Source: Actinomycetota bacterium
GTDB lineage: Bacteria > Actinomycetota > Actinomycetes > Streptosporangiales > Streptosporangiaceae
Length of the DNA: 33,836 nucleotides
Assembly: GCA_021324595.1 (NCBI GenBank)
Contig: JAJPIV010000012.1
Location: forward strand, 1 to 33,836
Reading direction: 5' to 3'
Shown in pieces: positions 16,018 to 30,240 of the stretch. The first letter of the stretch is position 1; every line of letters begins with the position of its first letter. The notes beneath the pieces are model-generated. The model had not been told where the DNA came from, did no database searches, and saw nothing but the letters and a program-made list of their open reading frames with translations. The position numbers were made by a program, and so were the translations under genes.

Positions 16018-16023
16018 TCGGTG

Positions 16024-17151
16024 GTGATCAGGTGGCAGGCCGGGGTGGTGACGGCGGCCGGGCGGGAGTGGGCGGGGGCGCTCGAGCTCGAGGTGACGGC
16101 CGGCGGGGCGGCGGTCCGCGCGCTGGCCTACCCGGAGCTGACCGGGCGGCCCGAGCCAGGCGACCGGGTGCTGCTCAACGTCACCGCGCTGGAGATGGGC
16201 CTGGGCACCGGCGGGTACGCGCTGGTGATCGCCGTCCCCGGCCGGCTCCCGGCCAGCCGCGGCGGGCCGGCCGGCCCGGGCGGTCCCGGCCGCCTGGTCA
16301 AGGCCCGGTACACGCCGCTCCAGGCGGCCGTCGCCGGCGCCGAGGAGCAAGGCAGCCCCTGGCACGAGGCGCTGCGCGAGGCCGACGACCTCGGGGGGAT
16401 GCCGGTCGTGGTGGCGGACCTGCACTCGGCGCTGCCGGCCGTGCTTGCGGGCTTCTTCGGTGAGCGGGCAGGCGGGGCCGGACCGGGCGCCCGGCCCGGT
16501 GAGGCGGCCGCGAGCCGGGCGGCCTACCTGATGCTGGACGGCGGGGCGCTGCCGGCCTGGTTCTCCCGGACCGCGGCGGCGCTGCGCGAGGCAGGATGGC
16601 TGGCCGGGACGGTCACGACCGGGCAGGCGTTCGGCGGGGATGTCGAGGCGGTCACCGTGCACAGCGGCCTGCTCGCCGCGCGGCACGCGCTCGGCGCGCG
16701 GGTGGTCGTGGCCACCCAGGGGCCGGGGAACCTCGGCACCGGCACCCGGTGGGGGTTCTCCGGGGTGGCCTGCGGCGAGGCGGTGAACGCCGCCGCGGTG
16801 CTCGGCGGCCGGCCGGTGGCCTCGCTGCGGGTGAGCCAGGCCGATCCCCGGGAGCGCCACCGCGGCCTGTCCCACCACAGCCTCACCGCCTACGGGCGGG
16901 TGGCGCTGGCCCGCGCCGACGTGGTCGTGCCGGACCTGCCCGGGGAGTTCGGCGCCGCCGTCGCCGCCGCGGCCGCGGCGCTCGGGCGGCGGCACCGGCT
17001 GGTCCGGGTCGGCGTCGGCGGGCTGCGCGAGGCGCTCGCCGCCTGCCCGGTGCCGCTGTCGACGATGGGACGCGGCCTGGAGGAGGACCCGGCCTACTTC
17101 CTGGCGGCCGCCGCCGCGGGCCGCCACGCCGCCCGGCTGGCCGCCGGCTAG
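16024..17151 (+). CDS. DUF3866 family protein
   Basis: A 375-aa protein of the actinobacterial DUF3866 family, function unknown, commonly found near the pup/paf/tat genes. It opens IRWQAGVV and has an OB-like N-terminal region (GDRVLLNVTALEMGLGTGGYALVIA). A Rossmann-like body follows, with LMLDGGALPAWFSRTAAALREAGWLAGTVTTGQAFGGDVEAVTVHSGLLAA and GPGNLGTGTRWGFSGVACGEAVNAAAVLGG, then SQADPRERHRGLSHHSLTAYGRVA. GTG 16021 is also possible; I prefer 16024 from the -10 spacing. It is the only non-IS gene on the + strand in 9.7-33.8 kb, and its last codons and stop lie in the first copy of a tandem repeat. Confidence 0.88.
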   Translation: MIRWQAGVVTAAGREWAGALELEVTAGGAAVRALAYPELTGRPEPGDRVLLNVTALEMGLGTGGYALVIAVPGRLPASRGGPAGPGGPGRLVKARYTPLQAAVAGAEEQGSPWHEALREADDLGGMPVVVADLHSALPAVLAGFFGERAGGAGPGARPGEAAASRAAYLMLDGGALPAWFSRTAAALREAGWLAGTVTTGQAFGGDVEAVTVHSGLLAARHALGARVVVATQGPGNLGTGTRWGFSGVACGEAVNAAAVLGGRPVASLRVSQADPRERHRGLSHHSLTAYGRVALARADVVVPDLPGEFGAAVAAAAAALGRRHRLVRVGVGGLREALAACPVPLSTMGRGLEEDPAYFLAAAAAGRHAARLAAG

Positions 17152-17267
17152 GCCGCGGTGCCGGGGCCGGGCGGCTAGGCCGCGGTGCCGGGGCCGGGCG
17201 GCTAGGCCGCGGTGCCGACCGGGCGGCTAGGCCGCGGTGCCGACCGGGCGGCTAGGCCGCGGTGCCG
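17145..17267. repeat. Five-copy 25-27 bp tandem repeat spanning the ends of two convergent genes
   Basis: CGGCTAGGCCGCGGTGCCG starts at 17145, 17172, 17199, 17224 and 17249, giving periods of 27, 27, 25 and 25 bp. The two long units end GGGCCGGG and the two short ones ACCGGG. The first copy contains the stop codon of DUF3866 and the fifth contains the stop codon of the FKBP gene; the central CTAG puts a stop codon on both strands of every copy. Each unit can also form a GCCGC/GCGGC hairpin with its neighbour, so the array could act as a repeated bidirectional terminator. Confidence 0.92.
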
Positions 17268-18190
17268 AGCACGTCCACGACGAAGACCAGCGTGTCGCTG
17301 CCCGTGATGCCCGCCTGCGGCTGCCCTGCTTTGCCGTAGCCCTCGGCGGGCGGGACCACGAGCATGACCCGGCTGCCCACCGGCACGCCGGGCAGGCCGG
17401 CGTTCCAGCCGGCGATGACGTGGCCGAGCTGGAACACGGTCGGTGGCGCCGACGGCTGGACCGCCGACGGCCAGTTCTCGTCGAAGACCTTGCCGGTCCG
17501 CCAGATCGCGCCGACGTACCGGACGACGACGTCCTGGCCGGCCCGGACCGCCGGGCCGGTCCCCTTGATCAGCGTGACGACGGTGAGCTTGCGCGGCGGC
17601 GCGCCCTTGGGGACGGTGATCGACGGCGGGCCGCCGGGCTTGGCGGTGACGGTCGGCAGGGCGCCGCCGCCGTCGCTGACGTGGGCGCCGGCCGCGGACG
17701 CGGTCACCGGGTAGGCGGCGATCGGGTCGATCACCCAGACCAGGGTGTCGGAGGCGCCGACGCCGATCTGGGAGTTCCCCGCCGCCCCGTAGCCGTACCT
17801 GGGCGGCAGCACCGCGAGCACCCGGCTGCCGACGCGCTGGCCGGCCATCGCCTTCTGCAGGCCGGTCAGGCCGATCTGGACCGGCAGGCCCTGAGGGGTG
17901 GTGGAGTAGGTGGAGTACAGCAGCCGGTGCGTGGCGCCGTGCCAGACGTAGACGGCGAAGTTCGCGACGTAGTCGTCCTTCACGGTGAGCACGGGCCCGT
18001 GGCCCGGGTCGACGGTCCTGACCACCAGGTTGCCGCTGGCGGGCCGGGCCGGGATGCGCACGGTCGGCGCCTTGCCGACGGCTCCGGAGACCACGACCGA
18101 GTCGTTGGCGTTCGAGGCCGGAGAGGAGCACCCGGCCACCGCCGCGGTCACGGCGAGCGGGGCAACGAGCGCGAGGGCGAGGCGTCGCAT
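17252..18190 (-). CDS. Two-domain FKBP-type peptidyl-prolyl isomerase lipoprotein
   Basis: A 312-aa exported lipoprotein. The signal peptide MRRLALALVAPLAVTAAVAGC has lipobox VAGC with lipidated Cys21. Two FKBP domains follow, at about 65-165 and 210-310. The second keeps the active-site pattern (YVGAIWRTGKVFDENW, VFQLGHVIAGWNAGL, PPAEGYG, DTLVFVVDVLG). The first lacks the FD pair and the central Trp (LYSTYS, IGLTGLQKAM), so it is probably a non-catalytic or chaperone module. ATG 18190 has AAGGACC upstream. FKBP genes between pafA and pafB are a recurring actinobacterial arrangement. The stop codon lies in the tandem repeat. Confidence 0.92.
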   Translation of the reverse strand: MRRLALALVAPLAVTAAVAGCSSPASNANDSVVVSGAVGKAPTVRIPARPASGNLVVRTVDPGHGPVLTVKDDYVANFAVYVWHGATHRLLYSTYSTTPQGLPVQIGLTGLQKAMAGQRVGSRVLAVLPPRYGYGAAGNSQIGVGASDTLVWVIDPIAAYPVTASAAGAHVSDGGGALPTVTAKPGGPPSITVPKGAPPRKLTVVTLIKGTGPAVRAGQDVVVRYVGAIWRTGKVFDENWPSAVQPSAPPTVFQLGHVIAGWNAGLPGVPVGSRVMLVVPPAEGYGKAGQPQAGITGSDTLVFVVDVLGTAA

Positions 18191-18223
18191 GGTGGTCCTT
18201 GGGTCGTGGATCGGCCTCTGGCC

Positions 18224-18229
18224 AGCCTA
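18224..18229 (-). promoter_or_regulatory. Candidate -10 for the FKBP gene
   Basis: The reverse strand reads CCCGG-TAGGCT-GGCC, 33 nt before ATG 18190 and immediately downstream of the terminator-like hairpin that ends the glycan cassette. The hexamer is identical to the one before helY. Confidence 0.45.
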
Positions 18230-18242
18230 CCGGGCCGCCCGG

Positions 18243-18273
18243 GCGCCCGGGGCACCGCGCCGCGCCCGGGCGC
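18243..18273 (-). terminator. Terminator-like hairpin ending the glycan cassette
   Basis: GCGCCCGGG (18243-18251) and CCCGGGCGC (18265-18273) are perfect 9-bp arms around 13 nt, only 4 nt downstream of the stop codon of the membrane-protein gene. There is no U-tract. Confidence 0.55.
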
Positions 18274-18277
18274 GCCG

Positions 18278-20236
18278 TCAGGTCCCGGGCGGCGCGGGCA
18301 CCGGGGCCGGCGGCGCGCCCGGCGGCGACCTCGGCGCGGGCGGGGAGCCGGCGGCCAGCCGGGCGAGCAGGTTCCGGCCGTAGGCGAGGATCGTGTAGCG
18401 GCCCAGGTCGTAGATCCTCGACGGCTGCCCGAAGGTCTGCCGGACCGAGGCGGCCGTCATGTAGCGGCCGAACCCGGGTGGCGGGGGGACCAGGACGACG
18501 AACGTCGCGATCGCCGTCCGCGGGTCGTACCAGGCCGTCCGCACCTCCCAGTAGTCGGCAGTGACCCGGGTGCCGTCGGCGAGCGCGGAGCGGAGCCTGA
18601 CCGCCCCGCCTGAGTCAAGGGTGACCACGTTGGCGTCCCAGTACCCGGCCAGGCCGTCGTCGAGGTGGTGCGCGGCCAGCCAGGAGGCCAGCACGGCGCC
18701 GTCCGGCGGGGCAGGCGGGGCGGTGACTGCCTGGCCGAGGCTGACCAGGTAGGCGAGCAGGACCGCGGCGGCCGCCGGGAGCAGCCGCAGCGCGGCCAGC
18801 CGCCCGGCCAGCACCCGGCCTGCCAGGGCGGCGCCGAACGGGAGCACGGCGGTGATGTCCCGGGCCGACGCCAGGTCGACGGCGCGCGTTCCGAGCACGT
18901 AGGCGGCCAGCACGCACGCCACCCCGGCCGCGAGCAGCTGCGAGGCCAGGTCAGCCCGGCCGAACCGGCGGATGGTCGCGCAGGTCGCCCAGGCGGCCAG
19001 GGCGAGGCCGGCCAGGTGGGCGCCGGCGAGCGCGGCGGCCGGGCCGGCCGGCTGGCCGAGGAAACCCGCCCCGAACAGCATCAGCAGCCCCCGGCCGGCG
19101 ATCAGGGCATCGGCCGGCACCTCGCCGGCGGTGGCGAGCATGGGCGAAACCGGCCAGACCCGGAACCCCCCGGCGCCGGCGATCAGGCTGAGCGTGCCCG
19201 CCGCCGCGGGGACGGCGGCCAGCCCGGCGAGCGCCAGGCCGATGCCCGGGGCGGCGTCCCGCCACCGGGCGCCGTCCGCCACCCTGGCGCGGTAGGCGCG
19301 GATCAGCCCGGTCACGGCCATCGGCGCGACGCCGGTGAACAGCACGATCCCGTCGGCGACCAGCGCCCAGGCCAGCACCGCCCAGGCCGCGGCGAGCGCC
19401 CACCAGCGGCGCGGCGCCCGGTCGAGCAGCGCGATCGCGGCCAGCACCGGGATCGCGCTCCCGGTGTGGTCGGGCGAGCCGAGCAGCACGGAGACGGCGG
19501 CGCCCGGCTGCGGCGCGAGCATGACGCCGGCGGCGACCAGGCAGCGGGTCAGGGCGGCCCTGTCGCTCGCGCGGCCCTTGGCGACCGCGGCGGCGAGCAG
19601 CACCAGCGCGGTGTAGGTCAGCGCGCTCGCCACGTGCACCACGGCGGGAGTCAGCCCGCGCAGCCGCTCGATCAGCATGTACTCGGGCAGCTCAGTGGTG
19701 TAGAACGACACGTCGGACAGCTGCCAGCCGTGCAGCAGCAGGTTGCCGTGGAGCATGTCCCAGGCCTGCAGGGCGTTGGACGCGCCGTCGGAGGTGACCG
19801 GCGTGGTCCGCGCGACGTGCAGGTAGCACACGGCGAGCGTCACCGCGGCAAGCGCCCAGCCTGCGGCGGCGGCCGCGACGTGGCGGGCCCGGGACGCGCT
19901 GCGGCCCGCCCGGACGGCGGCGCGGCCACCCCGGACGGCGGCGCGGCCACCCCGGACGGCGGCGCGGCCACCCCGGACGGCGGCGCGGCCACCCCGGACG
20001 GCGGCGCGGCCCGCCCAGGCGGCGGCCCGCGCGGTCGCGCCGGCCGCGGCGTACGCGACCACGCCGGCGGCGACCCCGGCGGCGACGGACCCAGCCATGC
20101 CGATGGCCAGGACCGCCCGGAAGGCGGCGGCCAGCCGCCTGAGGACGGCCGCGGTCTTCCCGGCGGCCGCCGCGGGCTCGCCTGCCCCGGCCGCGGGCCG
20201 GTCGGCCACGGCCGGCCGGCCGTGGCCCGCGCTCAC
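18278..20236 (-). CDS. Large polytopic membrane protein, possible GT-C-type glycosyltransferase
   Basis: A 652-aa protein with about ten or more hydrophobic segments and a soluble C-terminal domain of about 130 residues (from SLGQAVTAPPAP to the Pro/Ala-rich end). After the first membrane pair an extracytoplasmic loop reads VTSDGASNALQAWDMLHGNLLLHGW, with acidic residues where GT-C enzymes carry theirs; this, the topology and the neighbours suggest a polyprenyl-phosphate-sugar-dependent transferase, but I do not recognise a named family. The N-terminal region includes five tandem heptapeptides GRAAVRG between hydrophobic segments. GTG 20236 overlaps the epimerase stop as GTGA. Confidence 0.6.
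   Translation of the reverse strand: MSAGHGRPAVADRPAAGAGEPAAAAGKTAAVLRRLAAAFRAVLAIGMAGSVAAGVAAGVVAYAAAGATARAAAWAGRAAVRGGRAAVRGGRAAVRGGRAAVRGGRAAVRAGRSASRARHVAAAAAGWALAAVTLAVCYLHVARTTPVTSDGASNALQAWDMLHGNLLLHGWQLSDVSFYTTELPEYMLIERLRGLTPAVVHVASALTYTALVLLAAAVAKGRASDRAALTRCLVAAGVMLAPQPGAAVSVLLGSPDHTGSAIPVLAAIALLDRAPRRWWALAAAWAVLAWALVADGIVLFTGVAPMAVTGLIRAYRARVADGARWRDAAPGIGLALAGLAAVPAAAGTLSLIAGAGGFRVWPVSPMLATAGEVPADALIAGRGLLMLFGAGFLGQPAGPAAALAGAHLAGLALAAWATCATIRRFGRADLASQLLAAGVACVLAAYVLGTRAVDLASARDITAVLPFGAALAGRVLAGRLAALRLLPAAAAVLLAYLVSLGQAVTAPPAPPDGAVLASWLAAHHLDDGLAGYWDANVVTLDSGGAVRLRSALADGTRVTADYWEVRTAWYDPRTAIATFVVLVPPPPGFGRYMTAASVRQTFGQPSRIYDLGRYTILAYGRNLLARLAAGSPPAPRSPPGAPPAPVPAPPGT
19911..20015. 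repeat. Five-copy in-frame 21-bp tandem repeat in the membrane-protein gene
   Basis: Units beginning CGGACGGCGGCGCGGCC start at 19911, 19932, 19953, 19974 and 19995, an exact 21-bp period; the last unit diverges at its end. On the coding strand each copy gives the heptapeptide GRAAVRG, adding 10 arginines to one cytosolic or membrane-proximal segment. Copy-number change would keep the frame. Confidence 0.93.
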
Positions 20237-21249
20237 AGCAGCCCCGCCGCCATCGCGTCGGCGACCCAGGCGATCACCTCGTCGAGGACCCGCTCCAGCG
20301 GCGTCGTCGCGGTGAAGCCGAGCACCCGGCGCGCCTTGGCCGTGTCGGGAACGCGCCGCTGCACGTCGCCGGGGTAGGGCGGCTCGGACGCCAGCCTGGG
20401 CGGGTCGTCCGGCCCGCGGACCTTCCGCCAGATCATCGCGGCCAGCTCGGCGACGGTGGTGCCCCGGTCGCTGGCCAGGTTGAAGTCCTCCCCGGCGGCG
20501 TCCGGATGCTCCATCGCCGCGACGATCCCCCGCGCCAGGTCACCGCCGTAGGTGTAGTGCCGGACCTGGCTGCCCGAGCCGAGGATGCGCAGCGGGTCCT
20601 CCCCGGCCAGCACCCGGCGGGCCAGGTCGGGCACGACGTGCCCGGTGGCGAGCCGCAGCGTGCCGGCGTCCCTGGCCGGCCGGACCTCCCCCGTGCCGAC
20701 GCAGTTGAACGGCCGGACGATCGTGAACGGCAGGCCGTACTGGTCGCGGGCGGCCCGCGCGAAGTACTCGACGGCCAGCTTCTGGAAGCCGTAGGCGGTG
20801 GCCGGCGGCGGGATCACGCGCTCGTCGCCTTCCCGCGACGGCCAGGAGCGGGCGCTCTCGTAGACCATCGACGAGGACAGGAACGTCACCTTCCGCAGCC
20901 GTCCCCGCCGACGGGCGGCGATCGCCGCGTCGCAGGCCGCGGCGGTGAGCCGCTCGTTGGCGGCGAGCAGGTCATAGGGGTAGGCGTGGATGTAGCCGAT
21001 CCCCCCGACCATCGCCGCGCCGGCGATGAAGTGGTCGCAGTCGGCGAGCAGGCCGGCCAGCAGCCCGGCATCGGCCGCGTCCCCGCGGACCAGCTGGTAG
21101 CCCGCGCGGCCGGCGTGGGCCGGGCGCACCTGGCCGTACTTGGAGAAGTTGTCCACGCCGCGGACAAGGTAGCCGCGGGAGAGCAGCTCGCCGACCACGT
21201 AGCCGCCGATGAACCCGGCCGCGCCGGTCACCAGCACCCGCCCGGTCAC
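20233..21249 (-). CDS. NAD-dependent sugar-nucleotide epimerase/dehydratase
   Basis: A 338-aa extended short-chain dehydrogenase. The NAD-binding motif is GAAGFIG (residues 9-15), with Asp33 after the second strand. The active site is Ser125-127, Tyr153 and Lys157 (YGFQK). VRPFNCVGTGE, a substrate-lid GSGSQVRHYTYGGDLARGIV and DFNLASDRGTTVAELA follow, as in UDP-glucose/UDP-glucuronate epimerase-like proteins. GTG 21249 overlaps the stop of the glycosyltransferase gene (GTGA), and its own stop overlaps the membrane-protein start in the same way. Which sugar it acts on cannot be read; a UDP-uronic acid made by the dehydrogenase of the same operon is the natural candidate. Confidence 0.88.
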   Translation of the reverse strand: MTGRVLVTGAAGFIGGYVVGELLSRGYLVRGVDNFSKYGQVRPAHAGRAGYQLVRGDAADAGLLAGLLADCDHFIAGAAMVGGIGYIHAYPYDLLAANERLTAAACDAAIAARRRGRLRKVTFLSSSMVYESARSWPSREGDERVIPPPATAYGFQKLAVEYFARAARDQYGLPFTIVRPFNCVGTGEVRPARDAGTLRLATGHVVPDLARRVLAGEDPLRILGSGSQVRHYTYGGDLARGIVAAMEHPDAAGEDFNLASDRGTTVAELAAMIWRKVRGPDDPPRLASEPPYPGDVQRRVPDTAKARRVLGFTATTPLERVLDEVIAWVADAMAAGLL

Positions 21250-22079
21250 TGCAGCGCCTCCCCCGCTCGCGGGACGGCCTCCCCCGCTCGCGGGACGGCC
21301 TCCCCCGCTCGCGGGACGGCCTCCCCCGCTGCCGGGCCAGGCCTGCCCTCGCGGGCTGCCCCCCCGGAGCGCGGGCCAAGGGGCGGGCCGAAGCAGCGGC
21401 GGTACCAGCGCAGGTACTCGGGCAGCCAGGCGATCAGGCGGAACGCCGATTCCCCCGGGCGGCGGTCCACCCAGGTCGTCGGCAGCTCGGCGACCGGCCG
21501 GCGCAGGCGGTGCGCCTTGGCGGTCAGCTCGATGCCGACGGCGAACCCCCGTGTGGTCTCGATCCCGACCTCGCGCACGAACGCGGTCGAGTACGCCTTG
21601 AACGAGTTCGTGGCGTCGCTGGTGCCCGTCCCGGCCAGCAGCCGCAGGGACCGGCCGGCCAGGCGGGACAGCGCCCGCTTGACTGCCGGCCCGCCGACCT
21701 GCCGGCCGCCCGGGGCGTACCGCGACGCGGCCGCCACGACCGCGCCGGCATCCACGAGGGCGGCCAGCGCGTCGATCTGGCCCACGTCGTCGCTGCCGTC
21801 CGCCATCGTCACCACGGCGACCCGGCCGCGCGCCCGGTCCAGGCCGTACCTGATCGCCTGCGCCGGCCCTGGCCCGTACCCGCCGACCAGGCAGCGGACG
21901 CTCAGGCCGGCCGGGGCGTGTCTGCGCACCGCGGCGACGGTCGGGTCGTCGGGAGCGTCGACGACGACGAGCACCTCGCACCGCGAGCGCACGGTGGCGC
22001 CGATGGCGCCGAGCACGGCGGGCAGGCGCTCGGCCTCGTTCCGGGCCGGGATCACCACCGTGACGGCGGGCCCGGTCAC
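21246..22079 (-). CDS. GT2-family glycosyltransferase (polyprenyl-phosphate type)
   Basis: A 277-aa GT-A-fold enzyme: VTVVIPARNEAERLPAVLGAI at the start, VLVVVDAPDDPT, then VAVVTMADGSDDVGQIDAL carrying the DGSDD metal/nucleotide site, and SDATNSFKAYSTAFVREVGIETTRGFAVGIELTAKAHRL. This pattern resembles dolichyl/polyprenyl-phosphate mannosyl- and glucosyltransferases, but there is no C-terminal membrane segment. The C-terminus instead has three GEAVPRA heptapeptides and a fourth partial copy, encoded by a DNA repeat. GTG 22079 overlaps the dehydrogenase stop as GTGA. It probably loads a sugar onto a lipid phosphate for the membrane protein encoded two genes on. Confidence 0.85.
   Translation of the reverse strand: MTGPAVTVVIPARNEAERLPAVLGAIGATVRSRCEVLVVVDAPDDPTVAAVRRHAPAGLSVRCLVGGYGPGPAQAIRYGLDRARGRVAVVTMADGSDDVGQIDALAALVDAGAVVAAASRYAPGGRQVGGPAVKRALSRLAGRSLRLLAGTGTSDATNSFKAYSTAFVREVGIETTRGFAVGIELTAKAHRLRRPVAELPTTWVDRRPGESAFRLIAWLPEYLRWYRRCFGPPLGPRSGGAAREGRPGPAAGEAVPRAGEAVPRAGEAVPRAGEALQ
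21257..21340. repeat. In-frame 21-bp tandem repeat at the 3' end of the glycosyltransferase gene
   Basis: Units beginning CCTCCCCCGCTCGCGGG start at 21257, 21278 and 21299 (three perfect copies); a degenerate fourth begins at 21320. The coding strand gives GEAVPRA repeats ending GEALQ, directly before the GTGA overlap with the epimerase gene. Confidence 0.92.
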
Positions 22080-23245
22080 ACCAGGACCCCCCGGCCGAGC
22101 AGGTTCCAGATGTCGGCGACCGGCTTGTCGGTCCGCAGCGCGCGGTAGCAGGGGTGCGGCGCCGCGATCACCAGCAGGTCGGCACGACCGAGGACGTCCG
22201 CCAGCGGCAGCAGGCCCGGGCCGGTGACCAGCGGGTCGGTGCGCAGCACCGCGCGGCACCGGTCCGCGAGCAGGCCAGCGAGCGGCGCGGCCAGGCTCCC
22301 CCGGGTGTCGGCGCAGCCGCCCTTGAACGCGACGCCGAGCACGCCGACGGTCATCGCGGCCAGCTCGTAGCGCCGTTCCAGGCGGCGGACCAGGTATCCG
22401 GGCAGGCCCTCGTTCACCGCGATCGCGGCCCGCCCCAGGGCGAAGTCCCCGCCGTGCGCGGCGGCCAGGGCGGCGGTGTCCCCGGGCAGGCATGGCCCTC
22501 CGGCCAGGCCCGCCGGGGGCAGGCCGGCGGCGCGCGGGTATCCGAGGGCCACCCCTCGGCGGATCCGCTCGTAGTCCAGGCCCAGGTCGCTGGCGATCAT
22601 GTACAGCTCGTTGGCGGCCGCGAAGCTGAGGTACCGCCAGGCGTTCGCGGCGAGCTTGGCGACCTCGGCCTCCTCCGGCGTCATCGGAACGATCGCCGGG
22701 GCCAGGGAGGCGAAGAGCCGACTGGCCCGTTCCTGGCCCCGGGCCGTCCGGCTGGCCACGATCTGCGGCAGCTCCCGCAGCTCGGCCAGGGCCGCGCCCT
22801 CAGCCAGGCGCTCCGGGCAGTAGGCGACGTCCACGTCGATCCCGAGCCGGGCGATGAGCTTCTCGGCGCCCGCGGTCGCACCCGGCGGCACCGTGCTGCG
22901 CAGGATCAGCGCCTGCCCGTCGCGCAGGTGCGCCGCGCAGCCGCCGAGCGCCTGCCGGACCGGCCCGGCGACCACGACGATGACGTGCTCGGCGCAGGCC
23001 ACCACCGCGGGATCGGCGCTGGCGGCCAGCTGGCCCGCGGCGAGCGCCCGCCGCAGCGCGGCCGCCAGGCCGGGCTCGTCGGCCGGAGCCACGCCGGCCC
23101 GTACCGCGCGCACGGCGGGGGCGCTGACGTCATGGACCACGACGCGCCAGCCGGCGTCCGCCAGGGCGACCGACAGCGGCAGCCCGACGTGCCCGCATCC
23201 CCCGACGACCGCGACGTCATGACGGAAGTGCCCACCACGGCCCAC
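22076..23245 (-). CDS. UDP-glucose/UDP-ManNAc-type nucleotide-sugar dehydrogenase
   Basis: A 389-aa NAD-dependent enzyme that oxidises a nucleotide sugar twice at C6 to a uronic acid. It has a Rossmann motif VAVVGGCGHVGLPLSVALADAG, RSTVPPGATAGAEKLI, YCPERLAEGAALAELRELPQIV (closest in feel to WecC/UDP-ManNAc dehydrogenases), KLAANAWRYLSFAAANEL, the catalytic loop GGPCLPGDT with Cys252, LGVAFKGGCADTRGSLAAPL and a C-terminal VADIWNLLGRG. The Lys usual in GGxCLPKD is Gly here. It is shorter than the usual 420-440 aa. GTG 23245 is chosen (G-run upstream, good distance to the Rossmann strand); the frame is open 68 codons further up. First gene of the cassette. Confidence 0.88.
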   Translation of the reverse strand: MGRGGHFRHDVAVVGGCGHVGLPLSVALADAGWRVVVHDVSAPAVRAVRAGVAPADEPGLAAALRRALAAGQLAASADPAVVACAEHVIVVVAGPVRQALGGCAAHLRDGQALILRSTVPPGATAGAEKLIARLGIDVDVAYCPERLAEGAALAELRELPQIVASRTARGQERASRLFASLAPAIVPMTPEEAEVAKLAANAWRYLSFAAANELYMIASDLGLDYERIRRGVALGYPRAAGLPPAGLAGGPCLPGDTAALAAAHGGDFALGRAAIAVNEGLPGYLVRRLERRYELAAMTVGVLGVAFKGGCADTRGSLAAPLAGLLADRCRAVLRTDPLVTGPGLLPLADVLGRADLLVIAAPHPCYRALRTDKPVADIWNLLGRGVLV

Positions 23246-23309
23246 TGAGAACCGCCCCCCGACCCGTGTCCCCTGACCCCGTTGCCGCCGCTCCCCCGGC
23301 GACACACAG

Positions 23310-23315
23310 ACTCTA
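23310..23315 (-). promoter_or_regulatory. Candidate -10 of the glycan cassette
   Basis: The reverse strand reads CTGGC-TAGAGT-CTGTG, giving a leader of about 58 nt to GTG 23245. It lies just downstream of the two pafA-side hairpins. No recognisable -35. Confidence 0.4.
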
Positions 23316-23322
23316 GCCAGGT

Positions 23323-23373
23323 CCCGCCGGGCGCGGGCGGCGGACGGCGATTCGCCCGCCGGGCGCGGGCGGC
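23323..23373 (-). terminator. Duplicated hairpin downstream of pafA
   Basis: CCCGCCGGGCGCGGGCGGC occurs at 23323-23341 and 23355-23373, a 19-bp direct repeat with a 32-bp period. Each copy folds on itself (CCGCC-7 nt-GGCGG). Together they begin 16 nt after the pafA stop codon and look like tandem terminators separating pafA from the cassette. Confidence 0.5.
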
Positions 23374-23388
23374 TCTGCCGGGCCGCCG

Positions 23389-24747
23389 CTACATCCCGGC
23401 GATCAGCTTCTCGACCCGCTCGTCCACGGAGCGGAACGGGTCCTTGCACAGCACGGTCCGCTGCGCTTGGTCGTTGAGCTTGAGGTGGACCCAGTCCACC
23501 GTGAAGTCCCTCCGGCGCTCCTGGGCGCGCCTGATGAAGTCGCCGCGCAGCCGCGCCCTGGTCGTCTGCGGCGGCACCGACTTCGCCTCGAAGATCGCCA
23601 GGTCGTGGCAGACCCGCTCGACCGCCCCGCGCCGCTGCAGCAGGTAGTACAGGCCGCGGCCGCGGTGCACGTCGTGGTAGGCCAGGTCAAGCTGGGCCAC
23701 CCGGGGCGAGGACAGCGGCAGGTCGTGCTTGGCCCGGTAGCGCTCGATGAGCTGGTACTTGGTCACCCAGTCGATCTCCCGCGCGACCAGGTCGAGGTCG
23801 CCGCTGTCCACCGCCCGGATCGCCCGCTCCCACAGGTCGAGCACCCGGGCGGTGACCTTGTCGCCGCCCCGCAGGTCGATGAACGCGCGCGCCTTCGCCA
23901 GGTACTCCTGCTGGATCTCCAGCGCGCTCATCTCCCGGCCGCTGGCCAGGCGCACCTTGCGCCGGCCGGTCATGTCGTGGCTGACGTCCCGGATCGCCCG
24001 GATCGGGTTCTCCAGCGTGAGGTCCCGCATCACCGTCCCGGCCTCGACCATCCGCAGCACGAGGTCGGTGGAGCCGACCTTCAGCAGCGTGGTGGTCTCG
24101 CTCATGTTCGAATCGCCCACGATCACGTGCAGCCGCCGGAACCGCTCGGCGTCGGCGTGCGGCTCGTCGCGGGTGTTGATGATCGGCCGGGAGCGGGTGG
24201 TGGCCGACGAGACCCCTTCCCAGATGTGCTCGGCCCGCTGGCTGACGCAGTACACCGCGCCGCGCGGGGTCTGCAGGACCTTGCCGGCGCCGCAGATGAT
24301 CTGCCTGGTGACCAGGAACGGGATGAGGATGTCGGCGAGCCGGCCGAACTCGCCGTGCCTGGCCACGAGATAGTTCTCGTGGCAGCCGTAGGAGTTGCCG
24401 GCCGAGTCGGTGTTGTTCTTGAACAGGTAGATGTCCCCGGGGATGCTCTCCTCGCGGAGCCGGCGGTCGGCGTCGACCAGCAGGCCCTCCAGGATCCGCT
24501 CTCCCGCCTTGTCGTGGGTGACCAGGTCGACCAGGTTGTCGCACTCGGGCGTGGCGTACTCGGGGTGGCTGCCCACGTCCAGGTAGAGCCGGGCTCCGTT
24601 GCGCAGGAACACGTTGCTGCTGCGCCCCCAGGAGACCACGCGGCGGAACAGGTACCTTGCCACCTCGTCCGGCGAGAGCCGGCGCTGCCCGCGGAACGTG
24701 CAGGTGACGCCGTACTCGTTCTCCAGCCCGAAGATCCGCCGGTCCAC
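23389..24747 (-). CDS. pafA: Pup-protein ligase PafA
   Basis: A 452-aa carboxylate-amine ligase of the glutamine-synthetase fold. It phosphorylates the C-terminal Glu of deamidated Pup with ATP and joins it to substrate lysines. Glu9 in GLENEYG and the catalytic base Asp57 in [19 protein letters not shown] are present. So are [52 protein letters not shown] and the C-terminal small domain ending VEKLIAGM. Length is typical. The GTG start (24747) lies 11 nt after the aldehyde-dehydrogenase stop, so pafA is probably co-transcribed with it. Unlike Dop it has no insertion after the first beta strands. Confidence 0.97.
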
Positions 24748-24758
24748 CGGTGCTCAGC

Positions 24759-26219
24759 TCACCAGTCGACCGCGATGTACTTGGCCTCGGTGAACTCAAG
24801 CAGGCCCCAGTGGCCGCCCTCGCGGCCCAGGCCGGACTGCTTGACCCCGCCAAACGGGGCGGCGGGGTCGCTGACCACGCCGCGGTTGATGCCAACCATC
24901 CCGGACTCCAGGGCCTCCGAGACCCGCAGCGCGCGCCGGAGGTCCGCGGTGTAGACGTAGGAGACCAGGCCGTACTCGGTGGCGTTGGCCATCGCGATCG
25001 CCTGGTCGGTGTCGGTGAACCGGACGATCGGGGCGACCGGGCCGAAGATCTCCTCGGACAGGATCGCCGCGGTCGGCGGGACCTGGTCAAGCACGGTCGG
25101 CGCGTAGAAGTAGCCCCGCCGGTCCGGCGCGACCCCGCCGGTGACCACCCGGCCGCCCTCCTTCGCGGCGCCCTCGACCAGCGTCGCCACCTTGGACCTG
25201 GTGTCGGCGTTGACCAGCGGCCCGACGTCGGTGCCGTCCTGCAGGCCCGGCCCCACGGTGAGCGCAGCCAGGCGGGCGGCGAACCTGGCGGAGAACTCCT
25301 CCGCGACGGACTCGTGCACGTAGAACCGGTTCGCCGCGGTGCACGCCTCGCCGCCGTTGCGCATCTTGGCGATCATCGCGCCGTCCACGGCGGCATCGAC
25401 GTCAGCGTCGCCGAAGACCAGGAACGGCGCGTTGCCGCCGAGCTCCATCGAGCAGTTCGTGACCGTGCCGGCCGCCGCGCGCAGCAGCACCCGCCCCACC
25501 TCGGTGGAGCCGGTGAAGGAGAGCTTGCGCACCCTCGGGTCGGCGAGCATCGCCGCGACCACCGGTCCGGCGGTGGCGGTGGTCACCACGTTGACCACGC
25601 CGTCCGGAACGCCGGCCTCGCGCAGGATCGCGGCGACCGCCAGGGCGGACAGCGGCGTCTCCTTGGCCGGCTTGAGCACCACCGTGCATCCTGCCGCCAG
25701 TGCGGGGCCGATCTTGCGGGTGGCCATAGCGGCCGGGAAGTTCCACGGCGTGACCAGCACGGCCACGCCGACCGGCTGGTGCAGCACCAGTATCTTGTTG
25801 GCTCCCGAGGGCGCGGTGGTCACCATGCCGTCCAGGCGCACCGCCTCCTCGGCGAACCAGCGGAAGAACTCGGCGGCGTAGGTGACCTCGGCCCTCGCGT
25901 CCTTGAGCGCCTTGCCGTTCTCCAGCACCATCAGCCGGGCGAGCTTCTCGGCGTCGGCGATCATCAGCTCGTAGGCGCGGCGCAGGCACTCGGCCCTGGT
26001 CCGGGGCGGGGTGGCCGACCAGCCGGGCAGCGCGGCGTGCGCGGCGGCGACCGCGTCCAGGGCGTCCTCCACGGTCGCGTTGGCGACCTCGGCGATCGGG
26101 TCCTCGGTTGCCGGGTCGATGACCGGGAGCACCCCGGCCCGCCCGGCCGACCACTGCCCGCCGATCAGCAGCTGCGTCGGCGCGTTCATCCCCGTCATGC
26201 CCGCAAGGTCGGCGGCCAC
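24759..26219 (-). CDS. gabD: NAD(P)-dependent aldehyde dehydrogenase, succinate-semialdehyde type
   Basis: A 486-aa aldehyde dehydrogenase. The cofactor site includes VTPWNFPAAMATRKIGPALAAG, CTVVLKPAKETP and FTGSTEVGRVLL; the general base Glu is in MELGGNAPF; and the nucleophilic Cys is in NGGEACTAANRF, a pattern seen in succinate-semialdehyde dehydrogenases. Substrate is not proven by sequence. I start at GTG 26219 because GGGAGGGG lies about 5 nt upstream; the frame is open to ATG 26285, and ATG 26198 or 26189 are alternatives. The gene precedes pafA by 11 nt and is cut off from the upstream pore-protein gene by the IS. A link between this enzyme and pupylation is not known to me. Confidence 0.82.
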   Translation of the reverse strand: MAADLAGMTGMNAPTQLLIGGQWSAGRAGVLPVIDPATEDPIAEVANATVEDALDAVAAAHAALPGWSATPPRTRAECLRRAYELMIADAEKLARLMVLENGKALKDARAEVTYAAEFFRWFAEEAVRLDGMVTTAPSGANKILVLHQPVGVAVLVTPWNFPAAMATRKIGPALAAGCTVVLKPAKETPLSALAVAAILREAGVPDGVVNVVTTATAGPVVAAMLADPRVRKLSFTGSTEVGRVLLRAAAGTVTNCSMELGGNAPFLVFGDADVDAAVDGAMIAKMRNGGEACTAANRFYVHESVAEEFSARFAARLAALTVGPGLQDGTDVGPLVNADTRSKVATLVEGAAKEGGRVVTGGVAPDRRGYFYAPTVLDQVPPTAAILSEEIFGPVAPIVRFTDTDQAIAMANATEYGLVSYVYTADLRRALRVSEALESGMVGINRGVVSDPAAPFGGVKQSGLGREGGHWGLLEFTEAKYIAVDW

Positions 26220-26293
26220 GGTCCCCTCCCAGTTCTCGCCCGTGCGCGGGGCGGCGGCGCGCCCTCGCATGCCCGACATTACCAACGTCGCGT

Positions 26294-26410: not shown

Positions 26411-26836
26411 GTGACCGAGCCGTCCCTGCCCGAGCTGGAGCAGCAGCGGGCACAGCTGTTTGAGCGGCTGGCCGCGACCGGGGACATGCGGCCGGGCAGT
26501 GTCAACGCCACCTACCGCAGGTGCGGCAAGCCGAACTGCGCGTGCGCCCGCCCGGGTCATCGGGGCCACGGGCCGCGGTGGCTGTGGACCCGGTCGGCCG
26601 GCGGCAGGACCCGCACCCGCCAGCTGTCGTCCGGCGAGCTGGACAAGGTGCGCGCCGAGCTGGAGAACTACAGGGAGTTCACGGCCCTCAGCGAGCAGAT
26701 CGTGGAGGTGAGCGAGGCGATCTGCGAGGCCAGGCCGGTGCTGGCCGCCGGGCTGGCCGGTGAGCCAGCGGGCCAAAGAAAGGGCTCCGCGATCAGCTCG
26801 CCGCAGCGCTTGCGGCGGAGGCAGCCGCCGAGATAG
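26411..26836 (+). CDS. IS-associated DUF6788-type protein (orfA)
   Basis: A 141-aa protein with the conserved block GSVNATYRRCGKPNCACARPGHRGHGP, containing a Cys-x4-Cys-x-Cys pattern that may bind metal, then RTRQLSSGELDKVRAELENYREFTALSEQIVEVSEAICEARP, a helical stretch. This protein type accompanies ISKra4 transposases. GTG 26411 has AGGAGG 4 nt upstream. The last 20 residues (after GEPAGQRK) are basic and low-complexity; they lie beyond a candidate -1 slippage site, which suggests the functional product is the fusion with orfB rather than this short form. Confidence 0.8.
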   Translation: MTEPSLPELEQQRAQLFERLAATGDMRPGSVNATYRRCGKPNCACARPGHRGHGPRWLWTRSAGGRTRTRQLSSGELDKVRAELENYREFTALSEQIVEVSEAICEARPVLAAGLAGEPAGQRKGSAISSPQRLRRRQPPR

Positions 26837-28179
26837 CGCGGCTAGCCGCAGAAGCAGCCCGTGCGCTGGGCGCCGGGGACGGGCTGGAGGCGGTGGAGCT
26901 GGCGATCCGCACGGCGATGCTCAAGCTGGGCGGCCGGTTGCTGGAGGGCCTGCTGGACATCGACGACGGCCACCGCGGCCCGCGGGCCGGGTGCGGCAGC
27001 GGCCACGACGCGGAGTTCGTCTCCTACCGGGACAAGACCATCGACACCGTGGTCGGCCCGGTCCGGATGCGCCGGGCCTGGTACCACTGCGCCGCCTGCA
27101 GGCATGGCCTGGCTCCCCGGGACGACGAGCTCGCGGTGACCAGCGCGTCGCTGTCTCCCGGCCTGGCCAGGATGACTGCCCGGGCGGCTGCGGCAGTGCC
27201 GTTCGCCAGGGCCGCCGGCCTGCTTGCCGAACTCGCCGGCATCCAGCTGACCGTCAAGCGCATCGAGCGCTCAGCCGAGGCAGCCGGCACCATGGCTGCG
27301 GCGGTCCTGGCCGCCGAGTCCGCTGCGATCCGCGCCCGCCGGGTGATTCCCGCCCCTCCGCCGGCCCCGGTACCGGACATGCTCTACATCGCCGTCGACG
27401 GCACCGGCGTGCCCATGGTCCCGGCCGCCACCCGCGACCGCGCCGGCAAGGCAGAAGACGGCCGGGCACGCACCCGCGAGGTCAAGATGGCATGCCTGTT
27501 CACCCAGACCACCACCGATGATGACGGCTTCCCTGTCCGTGACCCGGGCTCGGCCACCTACCTTGCCACCTTCGACCCCGCTGAGCCGTTCGGCCAGCTG
27601 GTGAGCGCGGAGGCCCGGCGCCGCGGCAGCGAGCACATCCGCCAGCTGGTCATGCTCGGCGACGGCGCGGTCTGGATCTGGAACCTCGCCGACGAGCTGT
27701 TCCCCGCCGCCACCCAGATCGTTGATCTCTACCACGCCCGCGAGCACGTGCACGAGCTGGCAAACCTGGCCGCCCGGCTGCTGGCCGGCCACCGCGACGA
27801 CTGGCTCGCCGAACGGCTAGAAGAACTCGACGCCGGGGACATCCCAGCCCTGCTAGCCGCCGGCCGCGACCTTCGATTCACTGGCTCCCTGGCCCGCGAA
27901 CGCGACAAGGCCCTGCACTACTTCGACGCCAACGCCCACCGGATGCGCTACCGGCACTTCCGCACGCTCGGCATGTTCATCGGCTCAGGCACCGTCGAAG
28001 CCGCCTGCAAATCCGTCATCGGCCAGCGGCTCAAGCTCTCCGGCATGCGCTGGAACATCCCCGGCGCCACCGGCATCGCCACCCTGCGCTGCCAGGAAGC
28101 CAGCAACCGCTGGGAGCAGATCTGGCAGCGACCCCACAGCCAGACCCCGCCCGCCAACCTCACCGCGCATGCGAGCTGA
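26764..28179 (+). CDS. ISKra4-family transposase (orfB)
   Basis: A DDE transposase. The frame is open from 26764 (after TGA 26761-26763); the first good start is GTG 26893, giving 428 aa, but translation may enter by -1 frameshift from orfA, giving about 589 aa. Residues numbered from 26893: a zinc-ribbon-like segment WYHCAACRHGLAP (near 65), then Asp169 in IAVDGTGVPM, Asp257 in MLGDGAVWIWN followed by DLYHAREHVHEL, and Glu369 in GSGTVEAACKSVIGQRLKLSGMRW. All three acidic residues and the C-terminal signature are intact. The stop lies 30 nt inside the right end. Confidence 0.9.
   Translation, partial: ASGPKKGLRDQLAAALAAEAAAEIARLAAEAARALGAGDGLEAVELAIRTAMLKLGGRLLEGLLDIDDGHRGPRAGCGSGHDAEFVSYRDKTIDTVVGPVRMRRAWYHCAACRHGLAPRDDELAVTSASLSPGLARMTARAAAAVPFARAAGLLAELAGIQLTVKRIERSAEAAGTMAAAVLAAESAAIRARRVIPAPPPAPVPDMLYIAVDGTGVPMVPAATRDRAGKAEDGRARTREVKMACLFTQTTTDDDGFPVRDPGSATYLATFDPAEPFGQLVSAEARRRGSEHIRQLVMLGDGAVWIWNLADELFPAATQIVDLYHAREHVHELANLAARLLAGHRDDWLAERLEELDAGDIPALLAAGRDLRFTGSLARERDKALHYFDANAHRMRYRHFRTLGMFIGSGTVEAACKSVIGQRLKLSGMRWNIPGATGIATLRCQEASNRWEQIWQRPHSQTPPANLTAHAS
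26776..26817 (+). promoter_or_regulatory. Candidate -1 programmed frameshift signal
   Basis: In the orfA frame the slippery stretch reads A-AGA-AAG (26776-26782), which can re-pair as AAG-AAA one base back, and the -1 frame is that of orfB. A 6-bp GC stem, CGCCGC (26799-26804) with GCGGCG (26812-26817), begins 16 nt downstream; CTCCGC (26785-26790) with GCGGAG (26815-26820) is an alternative closer stem. The two frames overlap here by about 70 nt. Confidence 0.55.
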
Positions 28180-28209: not shown

Positions 28210-28218
28210 GCGGTCAAC
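28210..28218. repeat. Right target-site duplication of the IS
   Basis: GCGGTCAAC, identical to 26313-26321. It contains TCA (28214-28216), the stop codon of the minus-strand pore-protein gene. Confidence 0.75.
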
Positions 28219-29344
28219 GGCCGGTCCCGCCGGGGCCGCCCGGGCCGGGCGGGCTCCCGCCGGGCGGCCTGCGGTCCTCCGGCCGCTTCGGCGGTGCGGC
28301 GGCGAGCCGTCCAGGCCGGCGCGGCCCGGACCACAGGGCGGGCGGCAGGTCCAGGTGGCGGGCCAGCTGGTAGGCGGCGGACTCGTAGTTGACCCGCCAG
28401 CCGTGGAAGTGCGGCCAGGCGTCGTCTGCGGACCGCTCGGCCCGCCAGCCCGCGTCCCGCAGCCACCGCACCGCCTCGTCGAACTCGGCCCGGGTCAGCT
28501 CGATCGGGTCGCCCGGCGAGGGGTCGCCGGGCACTGCCATGCCGAGGTTGCGCGCCAGCTTGCGCAGGGTGAGGTACCCGACGCGGAGCAGCGGGCGGGC
28601 CTCGTACGGGGCCGAGCCGGGGTTGAGCGCCAGGTGCAGGGCCGCCGCGTCGAGCACGGCGAGCAGCGAGAGCAGCCAGGAGGTAGCCGGGTCGGGCGAG
28701 CGGAAGTAGACCAGCGTCCGGTAGCTGACATGGCTCTCCGACAGGTCCGCCGCCCACTCGGTCCACCGGGCGTACAGGCCGGGCAGCGTCTCGGAGTTGT
28801 CGATCAGCGCCTGGCGGGCGAGCAGCTCCGGGCCCCACGGTGGCGCCCCGGCCAGCGCCTCCAGCATCGCGACCAGCGTCTCCCGGCGGTTGTAGGCGGC
28901 GTAGAGCAGCGGCAGGTAGGAGATCAGCAGCGCGAGCACGGCCAGGCCGGACGCCGCGGCCACGAAGACGACCGCGACCGAGCCGGGCGCAGCCGGGACC
29001 GCGAACCCGAGCGTGAACAGCGCCGACCCCGACTCGCGCAGCGCCGCCGGGAAGCCGCCCGCCAGCGGCCACAGCACTAGCGCGAACCCGAGCAGCAGGC
29101 AGGCCAGCCAGGTGCCGAGCAGGCCGAGCAGGAACGCCGGCGGCCCGGCGGCGAGCACCCGCTCCCGGCGGGCCAGGTCGTCGATCCGCGCGGTGAGCAG
29201 CCAGAAGAACCTGTTGACAGCGGCCGCGAGCAGGTCGTTGAGCCGCGTGCGGGTGGCGCGCGGGATCAGGAAGGTCGTGATCACGCTCGCCGCGGTCAGC
29301 CCGAGCAGCGCGACGCCGCAGGCCAGGCCGGCCCAGGCGATCAC
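28214..29344 (-). CDS. Ion-channel-like membrane protein with a degenerate pore motif
   Basis: A 376-aa protein resembling actinobacterial two-TM potassium-channel-like proteins. Residues 1-30 form one membrane segment. Another lies near 70-95, then a pore-like loop ESGSALFTLGF with TLGF where K+ channels have TVGYG, then a third segment VAVVFVAAASGLAVLALLISYLPLLYAAYNRRE. The remainder is a helical cytosolic domain (AGAPPWGPELLARQAL, DPATSWLLSLLAVLDAAALHLALNP) with a Pro/Gly-rich tail. Ion conduction is inference and the filter is non-canonical. GTG 29344 lies 8 nt after the prcA stop, so it is probably co-transcribed with pup-prcBA. The IS inserted exactly at its stop codon. Confidence 0.68.
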   Translation of the reverse strand: MIAWAGLACGVALLGLTAASVITTFLIPRATRTRLNDLLAAAVNRFFWLLTARIDDLARRERVLAAGPPAFLLGLLGTWLACLLLGFALVLWPLAGGFPAALRESGSALFTLGFAVPAAPGSVAVVFVAAASGLAVLALLISYLPLLYAAYNRRETLVAMLEALAGAPPWGPELLARQALIDNSETLPGLYARWTEWAADLSESHVSYRTLVYFRSPDPATSWLLSLLAVLDAAALHLALNPGSAPYEARPLLRVGYLTLRKLARNLGMAVPGDPSPGDPIELTRAEFDEAVRWLRDAGWRAERSADDAWPHFHGWRVNYESAAYQLARHLDLPPALWSGPRRPGRLAAAPPKRPEDRRPPGGSPPGPGGPGGTGR

Positions 29345-29352
29345 CGGCCCGG

Positions 29353-30240
29353 TTAGCCGCCGGCCCCGCCGTCCCCGGCGGGCGGCCTGGCCTGCTCGCC
29401 GCCGGGCGGCGCCGTCCCGCCGCGGCCGGCCGTGGCGCTTCCGCCATCCGGGGCGCCGCTTCCGCCCACCGGCTCGGCACCCTCCCCTCCGGCCGCCCCT
29501 CCCCCGGCCGCCTCCCCCTCGGCGGCCACGGCCGGGGCAGCCGCCGTCGCCTCGGCGAGCAGCGCCTCAAGCGGGGCGCCGGCGATCCGGCGGAACGTGC
29601 GGTGATCCCGGCCCCGCTCCAGGACGGCCACCTCGAGCTGGCCGGCCGTGATCTCCGCCCGGTCCCCGTTGGCCTGGGCCTGCAGGCCGGCGATCGCGAC
29701 CGCCAGCGCGTCGCTCACCGACGCGCCCTCCACGTACCGTTCCTTCAGCACGGCGGAGATCTTGTCCGCCTGGCCGCCCATCGCACCGTAGCCGTGCTCG
29801 TCGTTGACCGAGCCGTCGAAGGTGATCCGGTAGATCTGGTCCTCCGCCGGGGTCTCGCCGACCTCGGCGACCACGATCTCGACCTCGAACGGCTTGGGGC
29901 TGTCGGTGAAGATCGTCCCGAGCGTCTGCGCGTACCAGTTGGCGAGGCCGCGCGCCGTCACGTCCTGGCGGTCGTACTGGTAGCCGGTCAGGTCGGCATG
30001 GCGGACGCCCGCCTTGCGCAGCGCCTCGTACTCGTTGTACCGGCCGACCGCGGCGAACGCGATCCGGTCGTAGATCTCGCTGATCTTGTGCAGCGCGCGG
30101 GACGGGTTCGGCGCGACGAACAGGATTCCGCCGTCGTACTGGATCACCACTCCGCTGCGGCCTCGCGCGATGCCCTTGCGCGCGTAGTCCGCCTTGTCCT
30201 TCATCGCCTGTTCTGGCGACACGTAGAACGGCATCGACAC
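29353..30240 (-). CDS. prcA: 20S proteasome alpha subunit
   Basis: A 295-aa subunit of the outer heptameric rings, which gate the core and bind Arc/Mpa. It opens [41 protein letters not shown], the alpha-subunit gate and H0 helix, and continues with [38 protein letters not shown] and [19 protein letters not shown]. The recognisable fold ends near residue 235; a Gly/Ala/Pro-rich tail of about 60 residues follows, so the protein is longer than the usual 230-260 aa. GTG 30240 has GAGGAAG 7 nt upstream; ATG two codons on is an alternative. It follows prcB by 68 nt. Confidence 0.95.

Follow-up and report, generated by a model that had tools for sequence, protein, structure and literature searches.

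A putative lipid-linked sugar transfer cassette between pafA and an FKBP gene in an actinobacterial Pup-proteasome locus

Three-component glycosylation systems, as described in passages of PMC8035078, combine a GT-A enzyme that makes a polyprenyl-phosphate sugar, a flippase that turns this lipid over, and a GT-C enzyme that transfers the sugar outside the membrane. The same passages note that GT-C enzymes show low mutual sequence similarity and that some GT-A enzymes are cytoplasmic and have a separate protein as their membrane partner. Here we analyze a four-gene cassette that may encode part of such a system. It lies within a stretch of 33,836 nucleotides (nt) from an Actinomycetota bacterium of the family Streptosporangiaceae (contig JAJPIV010000012.1 of assembly GCA_021324595.1, forward positions 1-33,836), hereafter the window, where it separates the Pup ligase gene pafA from a gene for an FKBP-type isomerase. 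According to parts of Iyer et al. 2008 (PMC2588565), the neighborhood of pafA in several actinobacteria includes two isomerases of the FKBP type as well as a DeoR-family regulator; in the titles and opening lines of abstracts from the literature on paf-locus neighbors, glycosylation genes at this position are not described.

The cassette and its predicted chemistry

Between pafA and the FKBP gene lie four minus-strand open reading frames (ORFs), all with open frames, in the order UGD, GT2, EPI, MEM. UGD (22076-23245, 389 amino acids (aa), GTG start) putatively encodes a nucleotide-sugar dehydrogenase; GT2 (21246-22079, 277 aa, PF00535) a family 2 glycosyltransferase resembling dolichol-phosphate-mannose synthase and predicted to form a polyprenyl-phosphate sugar; EPI (20233-21249, 338 aa, PF01370) an extended short-chain dehydrogenase/reductase (SDR) of the nucleotide-sugar epimerase kind; and MEM (18278-20236, 652 aa) a polytopic protein with a predicted GT-C fold. 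Successive genes overlap by the four bases GTGA on the minus strand, at 22076-22079 (UGD/GT2), 21246-21249 (GT2/EPI) and 20233-20236 (EPI/MEM). Such four-base overlaps are a common mark of translational coupling. A preliminary description of this DNA had named the four genes on one strand, between pafA and the FKBP and pafBC genes, together with the three overlaps; ORF calls and Pfam matches agree with it, and all three junctions read GTGA.

We consider it fairly likely that this cassette makes a uronate-type sugar donor, loads it onto polyprenyl phosphate, and transfers the sugar outside the membrane through the GT-C-type protein. In this scheme UGD would convert UDP-glucose to UDP-glucuronic acid (UDP-GlcA), which EPI would turn into UDP-galacturonic acid (UDP-GalA), most likely at C4. 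GT2 would then place the sugar on polyprenyl phosphate at the inner face of the membrane, a flippase encoded elsewhere would turn the sugar-lipid over, and MEM would complete the transfer outside, the acceptor being a cell-wall polymer, a polysaccharide or a secreted protein. Sequence or structural modeling shows the four protein classes, their overlapping order, the predicted GT-C fold, the recurrence of the UGD-GT2-EPI trio and a MEM clade at this site; the individual reactions, the kind of sugar, the need for a flippase and the acceptor are inferred. A UDP-uronic acid-derived sugar, lipid loading and transfer outside had already been proposed in the preliminary description, and the MEM model, the relationship of GT2 and the recurrence of the trio lend that proposal support.

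The identity of MEM follows from structure prediction. No model in Pfam or NCBIfam matched MEM, and neither database describes its family; a Pfam scan of a 31-member MEM alignment returned four families, each in one member and at E values of 0.034 or weaker, and a MEM profile searched against PDB sequences gave two matches (E about 0.5) that we took as chance. The AlphaFold model (predicted local distance difference test score (pLDDT) 84.4, predicted template modeling score 0.81) best matched ArnT (5f15; Z 23.3, root-mean-square deviation 4.7, 425 residues, 13% identity). Among the structural matches listed, which include ArnT, OST, PglB, AglB, PMT, Aft, Emb, ALG, DPY19, PimE and GPI transamidase, the first 48 are GT-C enzymes or GT-C-like subunits (Z 23.3-11.7), and the next row is FtsW at Z 5.0. 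Foldseek gave 12 matches at E ≤ 0.001, all of them GT-C enzymes. Because these matches are GT-C-type, we regard MEM as a GT-C glycosyltransferase by predicted fold, with a putative activity to match. Two acidic residues after the first core helix, in a putatively extracytoplasmic loop, D150 (conserved in at least 90% of 31 homologues) and D175 (invariant), are candidate catalytic residues.

The three supply genes recur as a module. Among 296 genomes of the class, including the window's own, an EPI orthologue (E ≤ 1e-60) was found in 10 others; UGD was adjacent in all 10 and GT2 was present in eight, six times in the order UGD-GT2-EPI and twice as the C-terminal part of a longer ORF that follows EPI and has a methyltransferase-like start. 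Loci L177 and L182 have no GT2 beside UGD-EPI. A protein of 521-602 aa with 8-11 predicted hydrophobic segments stands beside the trio in six of the 10 (L178, L180, L181, L183, L185, L186), a count that excludes polytopic ORFs farther off or separated by genes (at about 2.3 kb in L179, 1.7 kb in L182 and 2.8 kb in L184); at L177 no polytopic ORF was visible. From size and topology, our guess is that these large neighbors are GT-C enzymes. Those of L178, L181 and L183 had no Pfam match, and as candidate MEM homologues they were rejected by hhalign, which was given one sequence each. A predicted GT-C family outside Pfam and NCBIfam, together with a compact actinobacterial donor module that recurs with varied membrane proteins, suggests a simple rule for spotting lipid-linked sugar modification systems in actinobacteria.

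Several observations weigh against the proposed pathway. None of the four genes encodes a flippase, although Wzx was not searched for; two proteins matching the GtrA domain are encoded on contig C46 of the window's genome. A 19-residue hydropathy scan of GT2 found no hydrophobic segment, which leaves it without the membrane linkage of the prototype GT-A, and the position aligned to the DxD of dolichol-phosphate-mannose synthase 5mlz, its only PDB relative at E ≤ 0.001 (E 4.7e-8), reads MAD in all 23 rows. The EPI model (pLDDT 77.2, low in active-site loops) fits epimerases, dehydratases and decarboxylases about equally well; since the 50 entries listed all lie within 2.6 Z units (28.0-30.6), the fold does not resolve the reaction. 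UGD has three dehydrogenase-family domains above the Pfam cut-off (PF03721, PF00984 and PF03720) and scores 213.1 bits against TIGR03026 of NCBIfam (cut-off 189.8), but near 22485 it reads CLPGD where the 20 other aligned homologues read CL(F/L)KD. The catalytic Cys and Asp are kept, and Lys is replaced by Gly in the window copy alone (one of 21 rows; the three PDB chains compared also have Lys), the rows being tblastn pieces of at least 330 aa and at least 45% identity, which excludes the truncated copy of G004 and those of L184-L186, with 41-44% identity. Without the conserved Lys, production of UDP-GlcA by the window UGD is uncertain, and the protein could be an inactive or altered dehydrogenase. 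In addition, UGD is absent from the G023 locus (GT2-EPI-MEM), whose EPI (L094 12219-13235) has YxxxR for YxxxK, and MEM occupies the pafA-FKBP interval without the trio in G003, G062, G193 and G130. MEM can therefore probably work with other donors.

The same machinery may instead handle another sugar, which we regard as possible though unlikely. EPI would then make a UDP-pentose by decarboxylation, or a uronate derived from N-acetylglucosamine (GlcNAc) or N-acetylmannosamine, and the lipid donor would not carry galacturonate. Both UDP-GlcNAc 4-epimerase and UDP-xylose synthase are among the PDB relatives of EPI, with similar scores, and the best solved relative of UGD carries an annotation as a UDP-N-acetylmannosaminuronic acid dehydrogenase, both consistent with a different product. 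However, EPI has Met128, by alignment, at a position where decarboxylases presumably have an acidic residue. Its Arg190 is invariant in 14 rows and could be the carboxylate-binding arginine, although the loop that carries it falls outside the HMMER alignment to 6zl6; passages of PMC12338863 give Arg185 this role in the UDP-GlcA 4-epimerase of B. cereus. UDP-GalA is our preferred donor because UGD would yield UDP-GlcA and because of Met128 and the candidate Arg190.

Alternatively, the supply arm may be decaying in this genome, leaving MEM as the functional part with a donor made elsewhere; this is a similarly tentative possibility. The lost UGD lysine, the altered G023 locus and the intervals that hold only MEM would all fit, as would the EPI tree, which separates the sequences of the window, G004, G002 and G023 from the remaining 22 as a clade with long branches and 100/99 support; the window sequence was flagged for unusual composition. 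Yet all four frames are open, and the window EPI retains the SDR residues S125-S127, Y153 and K157 in the alignment. Between congeners, the ratio of nonsynonymous to synonymous substitution rates (dN/dS) is 0.26-0.35 for EPI, 0.29-0.45 for UGD, 0.36-0.47 for GT2 and 0.43-0.51 for MEM, compared with 0.36-0.64 for FKBP, 0.23-0.27 for pafB and pafC and 0.04-0.11 for pafA; the dS estimates are probably too low at such a high GC content, and the ratios would then be too high. The trio (0.26-0.47) is thus within or below the FKBP range, though above pafB and pafC, so selection still acts. Pseudogenes or free decay were rejected for the trio and for MEM on the basis of the open frames and these ratios. 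Since conserved residues are altered in supply enzymes of the window genome and of G023, the supply arm may nonetheless be diverging or partly idle, which the facts allow.

The pafA-FKBP interval and the history of the site

The preliminary description had given pafA and pafBC as close neighbors with only FKBP-type genes between them in other actinobacteria, and had proposed comparing the interval across relatives. Our survey took 47 pieces, covering regions of G001-G039 except G024 and G033 plus nine hand-picked family genomes; nine pieces with no detected FKBP gene were excluded, leaving 38 with both genes. In 27 of these, pafA and FKBP almost touch, with a spacing below 800 bp and no cassette gene in between. 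MEM lies inside the interval in 10 of the 38 and the full quartet in three (G000, G002, G108), while the 3.2-kb interval of G001 contains no cassette gene. The 38 include seven that are not an unbiased draw (G062, G193, G130, G203, G104, G108 and the window's own genome). Among the remaining 31, the interval is short in 25 and holds MEM in five (G002, G003, G006, G017, G023), with the quartet in one (G002); the last is G001.

Two of four congeners carry the quartet (G002, G004), G003 has MEM alone at the site and G001 has other genes there. The G004 contig, which reads UGD-GT2-EPI-MEM-FKBP, ends inside UGD, and its pafA lies at the end of another contig. By eye, the plus-strand genes in the G001 interval (L069 9545-12461) seem to encode a lysozyme-like secreted protein, a sigma factor and one more regulator-like protein. 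A sigma-factor-like gene also stands between pafA and UGD in G002. Because the G001 interval holds other genes, insertions may occur readily at this site.

A tree of 72 MEM proteins, rooted only at the midpoint, joins the window copy to the copies from G003, G004 and G002 (100/100), and these four belong to a 10-row clade (100/97). Seven members of this clade come from pafA-FKBP intervals, and the other three from truncated contigs where paf genes are neighbors; the rows of known genus belong to four genera (g1, g20, g25, g57). Since the site-specific copies fall in one supported clade that spans at least four genera, MEM at the pafA-FKBP site looks inherited within this clade. The preliminary reading of an imported or relocated unit and an unusual splice is thus half borne out: pafA and FKBP nearly touch in most genomes examined, but MEM appears inherited where it stands. 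In the whole tree, paf-linked and unlinked copies are intermixed (8 to 16 label changes per group), so MEM copies have also moved. The position beside pafA is a clade-specific genome arrangement, and this position is the only evidence that ties the cassette to pupylation. We regard the four genes as a real, plausibly functional glycosylation cassette, with a GT-C-type protein that appears to have been inherited at the site in its clade.

MEM is patchily distributed. It matched 11 of 60 genomes (the window's own, which is among the 11, and 59 relatives), one of them weakly (G030, E 4.4e-4), with 14 matched places in G006, 10 in G017 and seven in G036, numbers that are upper bounds because a single gene can account for more than one place. 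Of 250 genomes of the family, counting the window's own, MEM occurs in 28 and in 12 of 68 genera, again with one weak match (G220, E 5.9e-4); a PafA query, which also finds Dop, matches 249 of the 250. Among 150 genomes of the order (149 near-complete), MEM at E ≤ 1e-15 was found in the own genome only, and among the 296 class genomes in two, own included. These order and class draws are poor in draft genomes and may therefore understate MEM occurrence. A plasmid search with EPI returned 586 records, every one below 60% identity.

Scanning named genomes turned up 57 MEM loci, the majority in metagenome assemblies labelled Streptosporangiaceae or other actinobacteria; the carriers that are named strains or species are from Actinocrinis, Catenulispora, Dactylosporangium, Virgisporangium, Rhizocola, Allorhizocola, Micromonospora and Streptomyces humicola. 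A joint search for the four proteins elsewhere, as the preliminary description had suggested, found the quartet together in 13 of the 57, with thresholds of 100 aa and, for the three supply proteins, 45% identity. Seven of these loci have paf genes, L156 shares a contig with pafA in G017, and the other five have no visible paf gene (L133, L146, L147, L152, L155), although some of the contigs are short. One of the five belongs to a named, cultured strain, Actinocrinis puniceicyclus DSM 45618 (L146), where the quartet is flanked by genes that by eye, from their first residues only, look GT2-like and nucleotide-sugar-like. In Streptomyces humicola (L138), GtrA, SDR and GT2 genes lie within 4 kb of the MEM homologue. 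Several MEM paralogues, in tandem or scattered, stand around pafA, FKBP and pafC in four loci of other genera (L119, L121, L137, L196). The repeated placement of MEM around pafA is an unexplained pattern of genome organization.

The cassette had also been pictured as one transcription unit, closed by hairpins at both ends and led by a TAGAGT -10 element. GC-rich inverted repeats are indeed present at both ends, but neither end region folds better than its dinucleotide-shuffled versions do (z 0.03 and -0.77), and a hairpin-bounded transcription unit was rejected because the end hairpins are not above chance. A scan of 17000-24000 for terminator-like sites gave zero matches (0.5 expected in shuffles). 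TAGAGT occurs at minus-strand 23315-23310, its sole copy on either strand of the window, 64 nt ahead of the UGD start and within the 143-nt pafA-UGD gap, one strand of which is expected to hold about 0.07 TANNNT sites. It is a possible -10 element, although a sigma-70-type promoter scan of 17000-24000 gave zero matches (0.1 expected in shuffles). In 1-kb windows the GC content is 0.76-0.80 in the cassette, 0.77-0.79 on the pafBC side and about 0.70 at pafA. Because the cassette resembles the pafBC side there is no clear foreign composition signal, and a foreign base composition was rejected for lack of contrast with that side.

A broader scenario, which we find quite doubtful, is that an undescribed GT-C family, with up to 14 matched places in one genome, expanded in an actinobacterial group represented mostly by metagenome assemblies and came to lie around the Pup-proteasome genes, with the trio supplying all its members with one uronate-lipid donor; its diverged paralogues would give every strain its own surface decoration, and its location would bring co-expression with protein quality control. 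Coupling of the cassette itself to the Pup-proteasome or to the DNA-damage response of PafBC, for example through transcripts shared with pafA, seems very unlikely. Recurrent MEM genes at the paf locus in several genera and the shortness of the pafA-UGD gap would suit such coupling, but the quartet is also found away from paf genes, as in Actinocrinis, most family genomes with a pafA-type match (Dop included) lack MEM, and the gap has a -10-like motif of its own. Least probable of all is a recent horizontal import of the complete island into the window genome, which the patchiness of MEM (28/250 family, 1/150 order and 2/296 class genomes, own counted each time) might suggest but which is disfavored by the MEM and EPI trees, with the same-site MEM copies in the supported 10-row clade, the four copies of the genus together and the window EPI beside those of G004 and G002, as well as by the lack of GC contrast.

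Neighboring genes and repeats

Upstream of the cassette on the minus strand is pafA (23389-24747, PF03136), and downstream the FKBP-type isomerase gene (17252-18190, minus strand, PF00254), whose product has, by eye, a lipoprotein-like N-terminus. The FKBP gene is in turn separated from pafB by a plus-strand DUF3866 gene (16021-17151, Pfam scan). A 25-bp tandem repeat (17145-17267, 4.7 copies, 95% matches) spans the 3' end of the DUF3866 gene, the gap and the end of FKBP. Two 21-bp tandem repeats lie within the cassette, one with six copies in the N-terminal region of MEM (19901-20026) and one with 3.6 copies at the C-terminus of GT2 (21256-21330). Both are in-frame and give seven-residue protein repeats, and the MEM ORF of G002 has another low-complexity repeat.

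On the far side of pafA, the Pfam scan gave two proteasome matches (29353-30240 and 30309-31205). An aldehyde dehydrogenase gene (24759-26285) stands between these and pafA, as it does in several relatives. Between the aldehyde dehydrogenase and proteasome genes, 26411-28179 holds a plus-strand DUF6788 gene and a neighboring 428-aa ORF with no Pfam match, possibly a mobile-element remnant. A 376-aa ORF beside the proteasome subunits (28214-29344) also had no Pfam match and has counterparts at the corresponding position in G002 and G004.

Comparison with described systems

In their overall plan, the four genes resemble GtlA/GtcA/GtlB and CsbB/GtcA/YfhO, as presented in parts of PMC8035078, in pairing a GT-A enzyme predicted to load polyprenyl phosphate with a GT-C enzyme predicted to transfer outside. 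Unlike those systems, the cassette includes no flippase gene, its GT2 lacks a hydrophobic segment, it brings its own UGD and epimerase genes, and its GT-C-type protein is unmatched in Pfam and NCBIfam. A gene cluster that depends on GtrA is described for Actinoplanes in passages of PMC13390465. The rhizobial Rgt enzymes receive their donor by way of UGD and LpsL. RgtE with RgtD and RgtF, a polyprenyl-phosphate-uronate synthase serving more than one GalA transferase according to passages of PMC7663294, is the closest working system in predicted chemistry. The Rgt acceptor, in contrast, is lipid A, a Gram-negative component.

The Arn pathway begins from UDP-GlcA. ArnT is the best structural match of MEM, but the cassette has no amino-sugar or formylation genes, and identity between MEM and ArnT is low. 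The pentofuranose systems of family GT136 likewise combine a lipid-linked donor, a GT-C enzyme and accessory epimerases, and according to parts of PMC11127046 GT136 was founded without sequence similarity to earlier GT-C enzymes. The same passages give these systems a donor derived from phosphoribosyl pyrophosphate, a MATE flippase and an extra carbohydrate-binding domain, in all of which they differ from the cassette. Finally, the mycobacterial enzymes AftA, AftB, AftD and Emb are, like the predicted MEM protein, actinobacterial GT-C enzymes using polyprenyl-phosphate sugars, and they appear among its listed structural matches at Z of about 12-16.5. They depend on another donor route (passages of PMC11127046), and several of their chains are much longer than MEM.

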